Position numbers and translations under genes: made by a program. A model generated the notes under the pieces. The model was not told the DNA's origin and ran no database searches. It worked only from the letters and a program-made list of their open reading frames with translations. A DNA stretch of 64,000 nucleotides from positions 124,001 through 188,000 of the forward strand of contig NZ_ATVA01000018.1 in assembly GCF_000420485.1 (NCBI RefSeq). The letters run 5' to 3'. Below, piece by piece: positions 1-23,001 of this stretch. Origin of the DNA: Paucidesulfovibrio longus DSM 6739 (GTDB lineage: Bacteria; Desulfobacterota; Desulfovibrionia; Desulfovibrionales; Desulfovibrionaceae). Position 1 is the stretch's first letter; each line of letters starts with the position of its first letter.

Positions 1-258
1 CTCGTGAACACCATGCCGGAACCGGCCCGCGCCGCAGCGGCCGCCGTGGTCGGGGAGGACAACGTGCTCACCGGGGAACTTCCGGTCATGGGCTCCGAGG
101 ACTTCGCCTTCTACCTCCGGCACGTTCCGGGCTGCTTCCTCTGGGTCGGCAACGGCAAGGATTCCGCTCTGCTGCACAACAGCAAGTACGACTTCAACGA
201 CGAGGTCATCCTGGTGGGCGCTTCCGTGTTCGTGGAGCTGGTCCGTCAGGTTCTCTAA
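1..258 (+). CDS. M20-family amidohydrolase, C-terminal fragment
   Basis: The reading frame is open from the first base, so the 5' part lies outside the window. The visible 85 or so residues carry the end of an M20D metallopeptidase/amidohydrolase (hippurate hydrolase or N-acyl-amino-acid deacylase type). The GSEDFAFYL motif supplies the late metal-binding and catalytic-dimer region of this family, followed by a VPG...WVGNG strand and the LHNSKYDFND segment containing the C-terminal metal-ligand His. Family members hydrolyse N-acyl amino acids or aromatic amides in the cytoplasm. The next gene, an L-serine ammonia-lyase, starts 17 bases downstream on the same strand, so the two are probably co-transcribed in amino-acid breakdown. 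The exact substrate cannot be read from this fragment. Confidence 0.8.
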   Translation, partial: LVNTMPEPARAAAAAVVGEDNVLTGELPVMGSEDFAFYLRHVPGCFLWVGNGKDSALLHNSKYDFNDEVILVGASVFVELVRQVL

Positions 259-8240: not shown

Positions 8241-9412
8241 TTCTCCGTGGCGGCGCGCAGTTGCGGTCCGGCCGCGTCGATGATCGCCTTGGTGAACGCC
8301 TCGTAGCCCGCACGGTTGAAGTGGTCCCAGTCGCGCGGGCCATGCAGCAGGGTGTGCGCGGCCTCCTCCCGCAATTCGGGCCGGGTGTCCACGAAGCCGA
8401 ACCCGTTTTTCGCCGCGAACTCGCGGATGCTTCCGGCCAGAGCCTGGCTGAAGAGCATGATATCCTGCCTGGAAACGGGGTTTTTCTCCCGCTCCTCGCT
8501 GACCTTGTCGCCCTCCCAGGAATAGCAGGACAGAGGCGAGGGCACGTAGACGATGATCATGCGGGTTTTCGGGAAATGGTCGCGGATGGACAGGGCGGCC
8601 TGCTGAAACATGATCGTGCTGCTGTCCAGCATGTCCGGGGAGATGCTTACGGGCGGCCCCTGGAGCTTGTCCGGTACGGGCACGATGCCGGAGTCGAGAA
8701 CGATGCGGTTGATCTGTCCGGGCGCGCGCAAGGGGTCCGGATCGACGATGTTGCGGGTCAGGGGGTAATACACGCTGTCGCGAAGCAGCCGCAGGATCAT
8801 GTTGCCGAAGAGCAGGCCGTCTCCGGGTTCCCTGGGGGCTCCGGAGGCGTACTTGCGCACGAGCGTCTCCAGGAAGTCGCGATACTGTTCCGGCGTCTGC
8901 GGCCTTTCCCTGTGCTCGGAGTCGAGATGGTCGTAGAGGAAGCGCTTGTTGTCGTAGACGTCGTTGCCCTCGTAGAAATAGAGGAGCATGGCTCCGGGCT
9001 GGGGCAGCTTCAGGCCGAGGCGGTTCAGGCGGTTGTAGATCTGGAGCGGCTCCAGCCCGAGGCCGTCCCAGCTGCTCGCGCCGCTGCGCCCGAAGGTCAG
9101 GCAGTCCACGCCGAGGGCGTCGTGGAGCAGGTGCGTTGCCTGAAAGCGCGAGTTGCGGTCGTAGCCGTTGGCGATGAACCAGTCGCCCTTGCCCTGGGCG
9201 TAGGAATCTCCGGCGATGGCGAGGTAGCCGGGCGCGGGCAGGAGGTCGGCCTTGGAGGTCTGGCCGAGCACCCGCAGCTCGCGCGGCATGAAATTATAGA
9301 GGTTCGGCGGCAGGCGGTCGAGCAGGAAGGGGAAAAAAACGAACTCCGCCAGCAGATAGACCAGGGTCACGCTGGCCAGGGGCAGCAGCAGGGTTGTGAG
9401 CAGCTTTCGCAT
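8237..9412 (-). CDS. Membrane-anchored SGNH/GDSL-type hydrolase
   Basis: The ATG at 9412 gives 391 residues starting MRKLL and an immediate hydrophobic anchor (residues ~4-30). The upstream 14-codon extension lacks support. The SGNH pattern is readable: block I AGDSYAQG with probable nucleophile S70, block III YEGNDVYDN, and block V DWDHFN supplying the Asp/His pair near the C-terminus. Such proteins act as sugar O-acetylesterases or O-acyl transfer partners on exported glycans. First gene of the minus-strand cassette with the deacetylase-GT4 and GT2 genes, which supports a role in O-acyl trimming of a surface polysaccharide. Substrate is inferred from context. Confidence 0.8.
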   Translation of the reverse strand: MRKLLTTLLLPLASVTLVYLLAEFVFFPFLLDRLPPNLYNFMPRELRVLGQTSKADLLPAPGYLAIAGDSYAQGKGDWFIANGYDRNSRFQATHLLHDALGVDCLTFGRSGASSWDGLGLEPLQIYNRLNRLGLKLPQPGAMLLYFYEGNDVYDNKRFLYDHLDSEHRERPQTPEQYRDFLETLVRKYASGAPREPGDGLLFGNMILRLLRDSVYYPLTRNIVDPDPLRAPGQINRIVLDSGIVPVPDKLQGPPVSISPDMLDSSTIMFQQAALSIRDHFPKTRMIIVYVPSPLSCYSWEGDKVSEEREKNPVSRQDIMLFSQALAGSIREFAAKNGFGFVDTRPELREEAAHTLLHGPRDWDHFNRAGYEAFTKAIIDAAGPQLRAATEK

Positions 9413-12810: not shown

Positions 12811-12886
12811 GGGCCAGTAGCTCAGTTGGCAGAGCCACCGGCTCATAACCGGTCGGTCCCAGGTTCGAATCCTGGCTGGCCTACCA
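12811..12886 (+). tRNA. tRNA-Met (anticodon CAT)
   Basis: A complete cloverleaf of 76 bases with encoded CCA. Acceptor GGGCCAG pairs with CTGGCCT (first pair is a G-U wobble), with discriminator A. The D arm is GCTC...GAGC. The anticodon stem ACCGG/CCGGT bears loop CTCATAA, and the T arm CCAGG-TTCGAAT-CCTGG is perfect. The acceptor end is paired, unlike the initiator tRNA, and the body resembles elongator tRNA-Met. A lysidine-modified tRNA-Ile2 also has a CAT anticodon gene and cannot be wholly excluded. It stands alone with its own promoter. Confidence 0.95.
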
Positions 12887-16578: not shown

Positions 16579-17463
16579 ATGGCGAAAGCGAGAAACGTAT
16601 TGGTGCTTTTCGGCATCGGAGCGGTGCTGCTGGTGGCGGGCTACTTCGGGGCCAAGTTCATGGCCGAGAACGTGGCCGAGCAGAAGGTCAAGGAATTCTT
16701 CGCGGGCATGGACGACGTCGCCCACGCCCAATACGGCGAGGTCGAGGTCGATCTCTTCAGCCATGAGGCCGTGATCCACGATCTGACCATCGCCGTGCTC
16801 GGCGGCAAGGACATCGACGTCCGCAAGTTCACCCTCTCCCGGTATGAGGAGAAGGACGGCCTGCCGAGCGCGCTCAAGGTCCGCTTCGAGGGCGTGACCC
16901 TGCCCGTGACCCCCGAATATTTCGCAGGCTCCGCAGCGGACATGAAAGCCATGGGCTACGACGAATTTCACTGCGACTACGCCATGGATTATGAATACCA
17001 CGAAAAGGAAAAGAGCTTCGAGCTTCGGGACTTTTCCCTGGCCGTGGCCGATGCGGGCCGGCTCAGCCTCTCTCTTCGGCTGGCCAACGTGAACATGAAG
17101 GATCTCGTGGCGGGCGGCGCCAGCTCCATGCTCGTGGGCATCGAAGGCGCGAAGCTTCGCTACGAGGACGACTCCCTGCTGGGCCGGGCCATCAAGGCCG
17201 CCGCCCAGGAGCAGGGCCTCAGCGAGGAGCAGCTCATGGAGCAGTTCTACGCGGGCATCGACGGGGAGATCGAACGCAACCGGGCCAAGGGGCAGGACTT
17301 CGCCGTCCAGGTGCTGGAACAGCTTCGCCGTTTCGTGGACAACCGCAAATCCATCAGCGTGAGCGCGTCCCCTGCCGAACCCGTGGCCGTGCTGCAACTC
17401 CTGGGGCTTGACGATGCGGCCAAGGTGGTCCGCGCCCTGGGCGTCAAGGTCGAAGCAGAATAG
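16579..17463 (+). CDS. Membrane-anchored protein of unknown function
   Basis: Not recognised. The 294 residues begin with a positively charged start and one transmembrane or uncleaved signal-anchor segment (residues ~7-27, LVLFGIGAVLLVAGYFGAKF). The remainder is soluble and probably periplasmic. The body alternates beta-rich stretches (EVEVDLFSHEAVIHDLTIAVLG, LRLANVNMKDL) with a helical acidic region around 195-250, faintly like AsmA/DUF945-type periplasmic beta proteins. It is 10 bases after ispDF and 44 bases before cysS, so likely transcribed with them. No catalytic motif was seen. Confidence 0.7.
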   Translation: MAKARNVLVLFGIGAVLLVAGYFGAKFMAENVAEQKVKEFFAGMDDVAHAQYGEVEVDLFSHEAVIHDLTIAVLGGKDIDVRKFTLSRYEEKDGLPSALKVRFEGVTLPVTPEYFAGSAADMKAMGYDEFHCDYAMDYEYHEKEKSFELRDFSLAVADAGRLSLSLRLANVNMKDLVAGGASSMLVGIEGAKLRYEDDSLLGRAIKAAAQEQGLSEEQLMEQFYAGIDGEIERNRAKGQDFAVQVLEQLRRFVDNRKSISVSASPAEPVAVLQLLGLDDAAKVVRALGVKVEAE

Positions 17464-17507
17464 AACGAGTTTGATATAAACCAAATAGTTAGGATTGGAG
17501 TGTTTTA

Positions 17508-18962
17508 ATGCGCCTGTACAATACCATGTCCGGCGGCAAGGAGGAGTTCACCCCGCAAAACGGCAATGCGGTGAACATGTACGTCTGCGGCATCACGGCC
17601 TACGACCTCTGCCATATCGGCCACGCCCGTTCCAGCGTGGTCTTCGACGTGCTCGTGCGCTACCTGCGCCACAAGGGCTACGACGTGACCTTCATCCGCA
17701 ATTTTACGGACATCGACGACAAGATCATCAAGCGCGCCGCGGAAACGGACATGGATCCCGCCGCCCTGGCCGCCAAGTTCATCGACGAGTTCTATGTGGA
17801 CATGGACCGCCTCAACGTGCTGCGGGCCGACGTGGAGCCCAAGTGCACCGAGCACATCGCCGAGATGATCGACCTGACCGGCCGGCTCATCGAAAAGGGA
17901 CACGCCTACGCCGCGCTGAATGGGGACGTCTACTTCCGGGTGCGTTCCTTCGAAGGCTACGGCAAGCTTTCCGGCCGCAAGATCGAGGAGCTGGAGTCCG
18001 GCGCGCGCATCGCTCCGGGCGAGCAGAAGGAGGATCCCCTGGACTTCGCCCTTTGGAAGGCGGCCAAACCCGGCGAACCGTCCTGGGACAGCCCCTGGGG
18101 CCCGGGCCGTCCGGGCTGGCACCTGGAATGCTCGGCCATGAGCGAAAAGTACGCGCCCCTGCCCCTGGACATCCACGGCGGCGGGCAGGATCTTTCCTTT
18201 CCGCACCATGAGAACGAGATCGCCCAGTCCGAGGCGGCCACGGGCAAGCCCTTTGCCCGCTACTGGGTGCACAACGGCTTCGTGCAGATCAATTCCGAGA
18301 AAATGTCCAAGTCCCTGGGCAACTTCTTCACCATTCGCGACATTCTCGCCCAGTTCCACCCGGAAACCCTGCGCTATTTCCTGCTGACCATGCATTACCG
18401 CAGCCCGCTGGACTTTTCCTTCGACGCCCTGGAAGAGGCGGAAAAGGGACTCAAGCGCGTCTACGCGGCCCTGCGCCAGATGGACGAGGAGCTGACCCGC
18501 TCCAAATGGTCCAAGACCGAACTGCCCGCCGAGCTGTCCGCCGAGCTGGAGAAGATCGAGTCCGAGTGGACCCGGAGCATGGAAGACGATCTGAACACCG
18601 CCGGGGCCATGGGCCAGCTTTTCAATGCCGTGCGCCTTTCCGGCCGGATCGTGGACGACAAGGCCCTGCGCAAGTCCGAGGGGGCCAAGGCGCTTTGGCA
18701 GCGCATCCGTTCCGATGTGGCCGAATGGGCCAAGGTCTTCGGGGTCTTCGAGCGCGAGCCCGCCGCGTTCCTGGACGAACTCAAGACCAGCCGCGCCGCG
18801 CGCAAGGGCATCGACCCCGCCAAGGTGGAGGCGCTCATGGCCGCGCGCCTGGAAGCCAAGAAAGCCAAGAACTTCGAGGAGTCCGACCGCATCCGCGACG
18901 AGCTGGCCGCACTGGGCGTCGAGGTCAAGGACACGCCCCAAGGCCCGGTCTGGGACGCCTAG
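17508..18962 (+). CDS. cysS: Cysteinyl-tRNA synthetase
   Basis: Charges tRNA-Cys with cysteine. The 484-residue protein has the N-terminal zinc-ligand cysteine in YVCGIT, the class I HIGH motif in [17 protein letters not shown], the zinc and substrate segment [26 protein letters not shown], and the KMSKS loop (K265-S269). The C-terminal DALR-type anticodon-binding helices end in the usual [11 protein letters not shown]. Length is typical for the family. It ends 28 bases before a strong terminator, closing the housekeeping run that starts at 13043. Confidence 0.97.
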
Positions 18963-18990
18963 CTTCCCGCAACAGTTCATAATGGAAAAA

Positions 18991-19020
18991 AGAGGAGGCA
19001 TATTGCCTCCTCTTTTTTTT
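18991..19020. terminator. Rho-independent terminator after cysS
   Basis: AGAGGAGGCA pairs perfectly with TGCCTCCTCT around a TAT loop (18991-19013), followed by eight T residues; A residues precede the stem, so it could also work on the other strand. The open reading frame of the AT-rich islet begins within a few bases of the T-tract. Confidence 0.92.
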
Positions 19021-19026
19021 GACGGT

Positions 19027-19968
19027 ATGACTTGTGACACGATGTTTTACTTTGGCTCCCAAACATCAGAGTACAAGACCATAAGAGCAATCTTCACGGG
19101 AAGGTTTTGCTTCGTTCTTGGTATTGACGAAGATGTGATCCGAGATTGCATTCGGCAGAATGACCCAGATTGCGTTGCCGATCCGGTCCTGCGGGAAGAA
19201 TTACTCCATTCATTGGTTTTCAGGAGATGCCTTTCCGGATTGGCGCTCAACGGATTGCGATATGCCGTTAGGTTGCTTTGGGCAATGTGCGGGTCAAGAT
19301 ATGTCGTTGAGCAGTATTATAGATTACGAACTGCATTTTATCTTATCATGTACGAGGTACATGAAGACATTGTCGCACGCGGGAAAAAGCGTTTTGAACT
19401 TCTAAAAAGTGATTATTCATATTATAAATTTGTAGTTCAGAGATGTAATCCGTTCTTTTCTTTGTCGTTTATACTGCTAAGTCCCATTCTGTCTGTCGTT
19501 GGCTATGTGTTAACGGCTCATTATTCAGTCGTCATCTGCGGCACATGTAATGGGAATTCAATGAATTTTGTTTCAAAAAATAAGTATGTCGATAGCGTAA
19601 CCCGTGATAACAACAAATTGTACGGATTCTTCGGTAAATGGTTGCAGCTGGAGAATTGGATTAAGAGTCACAGCAAAGACTATGCTGCATGGACTGTGTT
19701 TAAGTTTACAGCTGAAGAGGAGGCTTTGTCGGAATTTTTACCGCTGCTTCCATATGGAACTGCAAGTTTTTATTCCGACTTCCGACGATATCTCATGGAA
19801 TCTGTATCTATAGCAGGTACATGGTGCAATTCCAATAACGTCGAAAGCTGGATTCGCATTGTGACTATATTGCTCGGAGCGGAAAGACCTGCGGAAAAGA
19901 TTTCTAAGATCGAGGCTGAACAAGATTTGTATAATATATGCAATTTCTACTATTTACATGGAAATTAA
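19027..19968 (+). CDS. Unknown protein, first gene of an AT-rich two-gene islet
   Basis: Not recognised. From ATG 19027 it encodes 313 residues. It is rich in Tyr, Cys, Ser and Asn, with a likely membrane-associated hydrophobic stretch (about residues 140-165, SLSFILLSPILSVVGYVL). Base composition is about 40% G+C by eye, down to about 30% in places, and it uses ATA, AGA and TTA codons that neighbours avoid; this indicates recent acquisition. The start is uncertain: ATG 19027 and ATG 19042 lack Shine-Dalgarno sequences and lie just after the cysS terminator, while TTG 19003 has AGGAGG five bases upstream but inside the terminator stem. A later internal start, or a 5'-truncated remnant, is possible. 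The stop directly abuts the next start. Confidence 0.55.
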   Translation: MTCDTMFYFGSQTSEYKTIRAIFTGRFCFVLGIDEDVIRDCIRQNDPDCVADPVLREELLHSLVFRRCLSGLALNGLRYAVRLLWAMCGSRYVVEQYYRLRTAFYLIMYEVHEDIVARGKKRFELLKSDYSYYKFVVQRCNPFFSLSFILLSPILSVVGYVLTAHYSVVICGTCNGNSMNFVSKNKYVDSVTRDNNKLYGFFGKWLQLENWIKSHSKDYAAWTVFKFTAEEEALSEFLPLLPYGTASFYSDFRRYLMESVSIAGTWCNSNNVESWIRIVTILLGAERPAEKISKIEAEQDLYNICNFYYLHGN

Positions 19969-20442
19969 ATGTATCTTACGAAAATGGATCACATACAATC
20001 ATTGGATGAGTTGTCGAACGCAATCGATCCTGACGAAAATCTCATCGTGATTGCTGTAAGAGACGCATCCGTTTATAGTGACATAGCAGTCAGCGCTATT
20101 GCAATGCAGTCTAATTTATCAAAGGATATGCATGTATTTTTTTTGAGCGGAATCGATATCGTTGATAAATTTGTAACGCATCTGTCCCTCTGCTACAGCA
20201 TTGACGTCGGGAAAAGTGATTTTGTCGTCATGCTGCCCTCGTGCGTATTCGGCAACATTGGCGCAAAGAATATCATCGTTATTGCGGATCAACCGTCGGA
20301 TGTCCCAGAGGACAACGATACGCGACTTGTCGCTGCATGGAAGTCCGCTCTAAAACGACTGCGCGTCAAGAATGTGATTGGTTCAACAGTGAGCACCATA
20401 CGGAACGACTTCGTGCACGCGCTTCTGGGACTGTTGAGCTGA
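19969..20442 (+). CDS. Unknown protein, second gene of the AT-rich islet
   Basis: Not recognised. 157 residues, beginning with the base immediately after the previous stop codon, so translation is probably coupled. Alternating beta strands and helices (LIVIAVRDAS, MHVFFLSGIDI, DFVVMLPSC, NIIVIADQPSD) suggest a small alpha/beta Rossmann-like or flavodoxin-like fold without a clear nucleotide loop. No signal peptide or membrane segment. It is AT-rich at the 5' side and closer to host composition at its 3' end. The gene is convergent with the PAS-receiver gene 67 bases away. Confidence 0.55.
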   Translation: MYLTKMDHIQSLDELSNAIDPDENLIVIAVRDASVYSDIAVSAIAMQSNLSKDMHVFFLSGIDIVDKFVTHLSLCYSIDVGKSDFVVMLPSCVFGNIGAKNIIVIADQPSDVPEDNDTRLVAAWKSALKRLRVKNVIGSTVSTIRNDFVHALLGLLS

Positions 20443-20509
20443 ACGCTGCAAGGCTGTGCTCATCCCTCTTTTCCTCTGCTGCCGCTTGGACGAGAGGAGA
20501 GTCATTTCA

Positions 20510-21631
20510 TTAAGATATCTCCTTGCGCAGCAGGCTCCCAAGGGCGTTCAGCAACTCCTGTTCCTTGTGGGGGGCGGCCACGCAGACGTCGAAGGGGGAA
20601 TCTTCGCCTTCGAATGCCTGGCAGCCGTAGCCCGGCGGGGAAAGGCAGACGATGGGCAGGCGGCGGCTTCCGGGCTTCGCGGCGTCCCGGACGGTGCGCG
20701 CGGTCTCCTCGCCGTTCAGGTAGGGCAGCTGCGCGTCCACGAGAAAGATGTCGAACGCTTTCGATTTCAGCAGGGCAAGGGCGGAAGGTCCGTCCTCGAC
20801 GATCTGCACATGGTACCCGGCTTGTTCCAGGAGCGTTCGGAGCACGTACGCGGTCAGGCTGTCCTCTTCGGCGAGCAGCACGCTCGGCCTGGGAAGGCTC
20901 GGCGCGTCGTCATCGCTCCCGCCGGAGTCCCCGGAAAGGGGGCGTTCCGTGGCCTCGGCCGTGTCCGCGAGCGCGGCAAGAGCCGCGGCAAGACGTTCCA
21001 GCACGGGGCGGGGGTCTTCATGCCCATGCCCGCCGCCCATGGGAGTCCCGGAATTCAGGTCGCGCAGGAGCCGGTCGAGCAGCTTGCTCGCCTCCAGGAA
21101 TTCGTTGCAATGTCCCCGCAGCGTGGATTCGAGCCGCGTGTTGCTGTCCAGGAGCATCCGCGTGAGCTGGTAGCGTTCGGAAACGTCCAGATGGGATACC
21201 ACGACGCCGTTCCCGCCGGATATCGGGGTGGCCTGCATCAGGAACCAGCGTTCCCGCGTGGGAGAGTGACAGGGATAGTGCAGCCGGAATTCTTCCAGCT
21301 CGCCGCGCAGCACCTTGCGCAGCCCGTCCAGCGCCACCGAGGCGTAGGGGTCTTCCTCGGAATCCAGGGCGCCCTTGCAGATGCGCAGGTAGTCCACGCC
21401 CGCGCCGAGCTGCGCCGGGTCGCCGCCATTGAGCGCGGCGAAGCGTTTCCAGGCCCGGTTCACGGCGAGAATGCGCCCCTGCTCGTCCAGCAGGGCCACA
21501 TGCGCGGAAAGGGAGTTGAGAATGTCCAGGGCGTCGGGACCGGTGCATTCTCCGGCCTGCGGCGGCACCTGTCCGCCGTGGTTTCGCCGTTCGGTTTCTT
21601 TGTCCCGAAAGTGTCCGCCATTCATGCCCAT
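20510..21631 (-). CDS. PAS - receiver signalling protein
   Basis: 373 residues from the ATG at 21631, chosen because GGAGGAAGC precedes it; the longer ORF start at 21679 has none. Residues ~35-155 are a PAS domain (ILNSLSAHVALLDEQGRILAVN pattern through HLDVSERYQ). A helical linker follows (~160-245), then a receiver (~250-370) with phospho-acceptor D299 in FLVDAQLP. There is no histidine-kinase or output domain. The position usually held by the conserved Lys reads VAAPHKE, so its switch may be altered. It could be a single-domain phosphate sink or relay for one of the hybrid kinases in the window. Gene stands alone on the minus strand. Confidence 0.8.
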   Translation of the reverse strand: MGMNGGHFRDKETERRNHGGQVPPQAGECTGPDALDILNSLSAHVALLDEQGRILAVNRAWKRFAALNGGDPAQLGAGVDYLRICKGALDSEEDPYASVALDGLRKVLRGELEEFRLHYPCHSPTRERWFLMQATPISGGNGVVVSHLDVSERYQLTRMLLDSNTRLESTLRGHCNEFLEASKLLDRLLRDLNSGTPMGGGHGHEDPRPVLERLAAALAALADTAEATERPLSGDSGGSDDDAPSLPRPSVLLAEEDSLTAYVLRTLLEQAGYHVQIVEDGPSALALLKSKAFDIFLVDAQLPYLNGEETARTVRDAAKPGSRRLPIVCLSPPGYGCQAFEGEDSPFDVCVAAPHKEQELLNALGSLLRKEIS

Positions 21632-21768
21632 TGCTTCCTCCGGTAGTGCGCGCCTGCGAGGGATATTCACGATCCGCATAGCACAAACAGGGGGCTTCTG
21701 CTACAGCGCCGACGCTTCGCGCCGGGAGGACGCAGGAGGGGAAAGGCGGTCGGGCAACGGGGCGCGTC

Positions 21769-23001
21769 TCAGCCCTGGCGGGCGAGGTATTGCAGCATGG
21801 CCTGCGCGGAACGCTTCGAGCGGCTCACGGCCTCGGCCACGGTCTTGGCCCCGGTGACCACGTCGCCGGAGGCGAACACGCCGTCGCGGCTGGTGCGGCC
21901 TTCCTCGTCCGTGATGACCAGCCCGGTCCTGCCGATCTCCATGCCGGTGAGATTGGTGCGGGGAGCCTGGCTGGCCGCGATGAAGATGGAATCCGCCGGA
22001 AAGAACTCCCGCTCCTGCTCCAGGGTTTCGACCCGCGTCCTGCCCTGCTCGTCGATAGCGAGCCGGGTCCGGGCGCAATGCAGTCCGCCTTCCACGATTT
22101 CCAGCGGCGCGGTCTGGAACCGGAAGCGGACGCCGTCCAGCTTGGCGTAGTCGTATTCGTACCGGGTGGCGGTCATGTGCTCCTCGCCCCGGCGGTAGAG
22201 GATGGTCACGTCGTCGGCGCCCTTGCGGAGCGCGGTCCGGGCCACGTCCATGGCCACGTTGCCCGCGCCGATGATGGCGACCTTCTTGCCGATCCAGTAG
22301 CTGTCGGGGTTCTTGAGGTAGTTGATGGCGTAGTGCACGTGGCCGAGGGTTTCCCCGGCGATGCGCAGCGGCCGGGGGTTCCAGACTCCGGTGCCCACGA
22401 AGATGGCCCGGTACTCGTCGCGGAAGAGGTCGTCCAGGCCGATGACCGGGCCGATGGTCATGTTCGGCCGGATCTTCACGCCCAGCTTCAGCAGCATCTC
22501 CCGAATCCGCTCAAGGATGTCCTTGGGCAGCCGAAAGGCGGGAATGCCGTAGCGCAGGACGCCGCCGATGTGTTCCTCGGATTCGAAGATAGTGACGTCG
22601 AACCCTTGCGAGGCCATGATGAAGGCCACTGTCAGCCCGGCAGGCCCGGAGCCGATGACGGCGATGCGGGTGCCGTTGCTGTCCCGCACGGGCCGCTGCG
22701 GCTGGAACTGCTCCAGGTAGTAGCGGGAGACGTAGTTCTCGATGTCGCTGACCTGGACCGGCGCGCTTTTCTTTCCGAGGATGCAGTGTCCCTCGCAGAA
22801 TTTCTCGTGCGGGCAGATCAGCGAGCAGACCACGGAAAGCGGGTTGTTCTGGAAGAGCAGTTCTCCGGCCCGGCGGATGTCTCCTTCCAGAAAGGTCTTG
22901 ATCATGTCGTTGACGGGAGTGCCGACGGGGCAGCCCTTGCTGCAGAGCGGGCGCTTGCATTGCAGGCAGCGCGACGCCTCTTCGATGATGTGTCTCCCCA
23001 T
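21769..23001 (-). CDS. GltD-like FAD/NAD(P)-binding Fe-S oxidoreductase
   Basis: 410 residues from ATG 23001; the longer form depends on a TTG start. The protein matches the glutamate-synthase small-subunit fold: an N-terminal Fe-S domain with C12, C15, C20 and C24, a second cysteine group in CSLICPHEKFCEGHC, an FAD-binding GSGPAGLT loop near residue 116 and an NADPH-binding GAGNVAMD loop. It ends with the ASGDVVTGAKTVAEAV helix that caps FAD. Such subunits pass electrons from NAD(P)H; homologues serve glutamate synthase, NfnAB transhydrogenase or stand alone as electron-input modules. No large glutamate synthase subunit is adjacent, so the electron acceptor is unknown. Confidence 0.88.
   Translation of the reverse strand: MGRHIIEEASRCLQCKRPLCSKGCPVGTPVNDMIKTFLEGDIRRAGELLFQNNPLSVVCSLICPHEKFCEGHCILGKKSAPVQVSDIENYVSRYYLEQFQPQRPVRDSNGTRIAVIGSGPAGLTVAFIMASQGFDVTIFESEEHIGGVLRYGIPAFRLPKDILERIREMLLKLGVKIRPNMTIGPVIGLDDLFRDEYRAIFVGTGVWNPRPLRIAGETLGHVHYAINYLKNPDSYWIGKKVAIIGAGNVAMDVARTALRKGADDVTILYRRGEEHMTATRYEYDYAKLDGVRFRFQTAPLEIVEGGLHCARTRLAIDEQGRTRVETLEQEREFFPADSIFIAASQAPRTNLTGMEIGRTGLVITDEEGRTSRDGVFASGDVVTGAKTVAEAVSRSKRSAQAMLQYLARQG

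Follow-up and report, generated by a model that had tools for sequence, protein, structure and literature searches.

Two abutting AT-rich orphan genes at a synteny break behind cysS in Paucidesulfovibrio longus DSM 6739

Our study examined a window of 64,000 nucleotides of Paucidesulfovibrio longus DSM 6739, in which two genes of the same strand, A and B, lie between cysS (cysteinyl-tRNA synthetase) and a PAS/response-receiver gene (Table 1). The TAA of A is followed with zero spacing by the ATG of B. The initial annotation of an AT-rich, directly abutting pair at 19027-20442 was borne out in its coordinates, in this junction, and in low G+C; its value of about 40% is right for A (41.0%) and less apt for B (45.6%). 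The composition is foreign, as had been proposed: cysS has 64.3% G+C, the PAS/receiver gene 66.4%, and the window 65.1%, a contrast of about 20-24 points between islet and host, and third-position G+C (GC3) is 0.43 in A and 0.52 in B versus 0.88 in cysS and 0.80 in the PAS/receiver gene. When G+C was measured in 500-base windows (step 50) across the whole 64 kb (mean 0.651, sd 0.048), solely those overlapping the islet fell under 0.50. The host is probably a sulfate reducer, because its genome holds one dsrA match above the family cut-off (616 bits, cut-off 393), which 0 of 14 control genomes pass.

Table 1. Features of the islet and its surroundings, and other AT-rich stretches of the genome and genus (positions with an L prefix belong to separate loci).
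Feature	Position	Strand	Description
cysS, left flank	17508-18962	+	cysteinyl-tRNA synthetase
cysS-distal hairpin	18986-19018	+	15 perfect pairs, loop of 3, T run
TTG	19003-19005	+	possible alternative start of A, inside hairpin
gene A	19027-19968	+	313 aa from ATG 19027; hydrophobic segment ~140-172, CxxC at residues 171-174; orphan
gene B	19969-20442	+	157 aa, small soluble protein, orphan; ATG abuts TAA of A
PAS/response-receiver gene, right flank	20510-21679	-	converges on B
tRNA	12811-12886		sole tRNA of the window
518-aa frame	L064:9099-10655	-	contig C18, own genome; 36% G+C, hydrophobic C-terminal part
294-aa frame	L077:7284-8168		congener G002; 44% G+C; adjoins tRNA-Phe 8329-8404
Frame with Rhs/YD-like repeats (by eye)	L068:6000-9957		tail pieces recur nearby

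The pair had been placed behind a cysS terminator, and a real 15-pair hairpin stands there: a perfect 15-base inverted repeat (18986-19000/19004-19018) that runs into T. We read it as the probable terminator of cysS; it is absent from the output of a consensus terminator scan. The AT-rich DNA starts immediately 3' of this hairpin, and 8 bases separate the hairpin from ATG 19027. Where A begins is uncertain; the candidates are TTG 19003, ATG 19027, and ATG 19042, for which pairing with the anti-Shine-Dalgarno sequence was calculated at -12.0, +0.7, and -3.0 kcal/mol, respectively. No start of the region other than the TTG has a strong Shine-Dalgarno, and the GAGGAGG concerned is part of the hairpin's left arm. 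The frame of A stays open upstream to 18625, with no in-frame stop before ATG 19027, and a consensus scan of 18500-19027 found no plus-strand promoter-like site. A weak Shine-Dalgarno is by itself a poor argument, because among 45 mechanically chosen ORFs of the window, the first start attains -5 kcal/mol in only 21, a number that rises to 34 when the best start within 50 codons is taken instead. Either the 5' end of A may have been lost on the arrival of the DNA, or its translation may depend on read-through messages, with TTG 19003 as a possible start.

The open run of 315 codons in A was compared with 2000 mononucleotide shuffles of the islet, in which the median run was 88 codons and the maximum 192. 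Its period-3 signal is weak, being reached by 95 and 99 of 2000 shuffles in two runs, and its G+C variance by codon position was equalled in 1022 of 5000; the period-3 level of B was reached in 0 of 2000. Since this signal is clear in B and weak in A, B is accepted with good confidence as a real gene, and the case for A as a gene is made mainly by the length of its frame. The membrane segment proposed for A is seen in its hydrophobic peak (19-residue window 144-162, Kyte-Doolittle 2.09), the single strong hydrophobic segment of the protein, and A is probably a single-pass membrane protein. Structure prediction, which had been recommended together with profile searches, was carried out on single sequences and gave models of too low quality for use (mean pLDDT 35.0 for A and 41.6 for B). 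The alpha/beta fold proposed for B is based on its sequence, which suggests alternating strands and helices, and on its poor model, for which Foldseek returned 0 PDB matches at E <= 0.001 (best 0.098). A likeness of the strand-helix pattern of B to DsrE-like folds was set aside, as no tool supports it.

That neither protein is recognized agrees with our searches. At E <= 0.001, A and B each matched 1 of 99 relatives, namely their own genome, which was also the sole credible match of a joined A+B query in 395 phylum, 288 family, and 348 order genomes (overlapping sets). Beyond it, weak matches were found in 9 of the 395 phylum genomes (E <= 0.1), in 9 of the 288 family genomes (E <= 0.1; 10 matches), and in 1 of the 348 order genomes (E <= 0.01; the same match, in G566, as in the family set). 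They are mostly short, spanning 43-177 query residues at 22-41% identity. Re-scoring of 14 of the 19 weak-match loci against A and B gave some alignments that pass the HMMER inclusion threshold, five of A (36-52 residues) and two of B, which we do not take as homology because the database was tiny and consisted of loci picked for the match. The weak matches inspected (14 of 19) appear to be shadow frames or unrelated genes: in L054, L056, L007, and L004, the match lies in a frame overlapped by a longer one on another strand or in another phase; in L060, the match is a lipoprotein-like start; in L005, B matches a frame of the minus strand that lies in part opposite a Cys-rich one; and in L009, the match falls within a 694-residue frame whose translation resembles NAD synthetase.

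Pfam, NCBIfam, PHROGs, and PADLOC-DB, searched at E up to 10, contain no credible family for A or B. The matches of A to VP1_VP3 (E=0.0055; 17.1 bits, under the cut-off of 25) and phrog_5402 (E=0.11) both lie over its hydrophobic segment (146-191), so we read them as membrane-helix composition. Those of A to PPTA (E=0.081) and Mating_N (E=0.26) and of B to phrog_10173 (E=0.18) are not credible, nor is that of B to HEC-02B (E=0.011, over 19 residues of B), the only defence family model that appeared for either protein. With tblastn against plasmids and phages, the best E values were 0.6 and 1 for A and 1 and 1 for B; PDB sequences gave one match to A at E=1.3 and none to B; blastn of the islet DNA gave no match in E. 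coli genomes, and Rfam at gathering scores gave 0 matches in 17000-22500. Pattern scans of viral and genome contigs, a method that reaches close relatives only, yielded no credible relative, and a literature search found no paper. The apparent lack of homologues is a statement about the collections searched at the given sensitivity, in which profile searches cover the host phylum, and other phyla are represented by the pattern scans and the phage and plasmid collections.

To place the islet in its genomic context, we compared 30 cysS loci from 25 genomes, each with some 1.5 kb of flanking sequence and five of them with more. The cysS gene is full-length in 24 of the 25 genomes and a fragment in G005, and A or B occurs in no locus but that of the window itself. 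The two congeners compared (G001 and G002, both drafts) lack A and B and carry other genes 3' of cysS: an M16C-like peptidase in G001, and an aminotransferase followed by HtpG in G002 (names read from translations, without family search). The left block, in the order ispDF-X-cysS, is kept in both. The right block is found in the same order in G002 (MATE, 82%; gltD-like, 86%; PAS/receiver, 44%), followed by a gene whose translation resembles cyanase; in G001, the best gltD-like match, at 41%, is not close. Both blocks are therefore kept in G002, each on a contig of its own and bordered there by other genes, and because they lie apart there, the islet is the meeting point of two conserved blocks here and not in G002, that is, it lies at a synteny break. 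An empty site, with cysS joined to the PAS/receiver gene without the islet, was not found in the two congeners. The synteny break and the ribosome site within the hairpin are the new details of this locus. Just 3' of cysS, both congeners (loci L049 and L050) have similar elements in the intergenic sequence, with the core AACCTTTCTGAAGAAAGGTT, which has 0 matches in the 64-kb window at up to 3 mismatches.

The initial annotation had reported no integrase, repeats, or att-like sites, and our study confirms that no mobile-element signature lies near the islet. Two repeats were found, a direct repeat of 20 bases (85%) between B and the PAS/receiver gene, and, between this gene and cysS, an imperfect inverted pair of 29 bases (72%); judging from size and quality, both are probably due to chance, and no att-like pair surrounds the islet. 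The only tRNA of the window is 6 kb away. A Pfam scan of nine window neighbours found non-phage, non-integrase domains in eight and no domain in one; the islet shows neither integrase, att repeats, an edge tRNA, nor phage genes. The same scan found no defence gene among these neighbours, and the family libraries found no toxin or antitoxin family domain in A or B. The suggestion of a defence, toxin-antitoxin, or surface system consequently gained no backing from family matches or from the neighbourhood; what speaks for such roles is position and composition, and none of our tests favors defence over other accessory roles.

In 1-kb windows of the 222,612-base contig (mean G+C 0.654, sd 0.044), three stretches lie under 0.52, namely the A/B islet, the 518-aa frame, and the Rhs/YD-like repeat stretch; small AT-rich islets are thus not unique here, judging from the one contig examined. 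The 518-aa frame is pentapeptide-like by eye, with no Pfam match at E <= 0.001. Behind the Rhs/YD-like frame, an AT-rich stretch of small frames was observed. The contig of the 294-aa frame in G002 is elsewhere mostly 55-67% G+C. The period-3 level of these frames was reached by 253 (L077), 17 (L068), and 0 (L064) of 2000 shuffles, so that L077 is as weak as A, L068 is intermediate, and L064 is clear. The one-gene islets L064 and L077 resemble the A/B islet in having a foreign-looking frame between GC-rich genes, but no sequence link was seen, A and B matching nothing else in their own genome or in G002.

The islet belongs to a class that has been described before, that of ORFan genes in A+T-rich DNA (PMC2275313). 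The ORFans of E. coli are presented there as acquired, A+T-rich genes without homologues, with 44% G+C; they are likelier to persist than other acquired genes, and truncation is the main form of their inactivation (PMC2275313). A and B resemble them in their lack of homologues, G+C below that of the host, small cluster, and lack of a known function, and differ from them in their GC-rich host, the 20-24-point contrast, and their site at a synteny break. What marks an ORFan was found in both: no homologue in the collections searched, host-unlike composition, and absence from 2 of 2 congeners. Two-gene defence or toxin-antitoxin cassettes are likewise abutting, patchy, and AT-rich, and differ from A and B in that no recognized domain, relatives, or such neighbours were found here.

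The reading that we prefer, and to which we give an even chance, is that of acquired orphan cargo, translated in tandem, membrane-associated, weakly expressed, located at a rearrangement junction, and possibly decaying. It builds on the position, composition, and frames of the pair, on the synteny break and the weak ribosome sites, and on the failure of the collections searched to yield a relative; that other one-gene AT-rich islets occur in the genus also speaks for it. A piece of foreign, AT-rich DNA carrying the two orphan genes in tandem would, in this lineage, have come to rest at the junction of two otherwise conserved chromosomal blocks; we infer the acquisition from the composition of the islet and its absence elsewhere, with no donor or homologue found. 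A single message would serve both genes, with B translationally coupled to A through the TAA/ATG junction. The product of A may be a membrane anchor or effector and that of B its soluble partner, the two acting, or having acted, together at the membrane. Low expression by read-through from cysS would be expected, because neither a promoter nor a good ribosome site was seen from the cysS hairpin to the ATGs of A. Loss of function may already be under way, although the persistence of E. coli ORFans (PMC2275313) speaks against this part. The weak period-3 signal of A counts against the preferred reading.

The main rival account, less likely than the preferred one, is that the islet is a relic, a fragment of a phage, plasmid, or island whose first gene lost its 5' end on joining the cysS terminator and from which nothing useful is made. 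The onset of AT-rich DNA right at the hairpin end, two ATGs without Shine-Dalgarno, the missing promoter-like site and in-frame stop upstream of A, and the synteny break are all in keeping with it. Such a fragment has to be reconciled with frames of 313 and 157 codons that are both intact, with abutting stop and start, and with the clear coding signal of B; the relic account would have the frames still open because the event was recent, and the tendency of ORFans to persist (PMC2275313) goes against it. The doubt about A can be taken further, to B alone being a gene and A a chance open frame. We find this very improbable: its weak period-3 signal and its G+C variance speak for it, but an open run of 315 codons against a shuffle maximum of 192 speaks against it, and another AT-rich frame of the genus, L077, is equally weak. 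We give hardly any credence to A and B being one gene split by a single stop codon. The common frame with exactly one TAA, which on read-through gives 615 residues, would fit, but an ATG directly follows the stop, abutting genes always share a frame, and no single-chain relative is known.

That the pair works in conflict (phage defence, toxin-antitoxin, or competition), with A as membrane effector or toxin and B as soluble regulator or antidote, seems unlikely to us. The abutting genes, the patchy AT-rich islet, and the hydrophobic segment in one protein are what such a pair would show, but neither protein matches a defence, toxin, or antitoxin family, Pfam finds no defence gene among the nine neighbours, no promoter was seen, and a pair without homologues offers no evidence of co-occurrence. 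A more elaborate version is improbable: a working two-protein membrane conflict system without a described relative at a rearrangement junction, with its ribosome site in the cysS terminator stem, so that the hairpin would both end cysS messages and hide the ribosome site of A in read-through messages.

The evidence at hand favors the ordinary end of this range. If the islet is a relic, it adds one more case of a GC-rich genome that contains foreign, AT-rich DNA. If the pair works, its two proteins would have no known relatives, and orphan cargo would settle at rearrangement junctions as well as at integrase sites.
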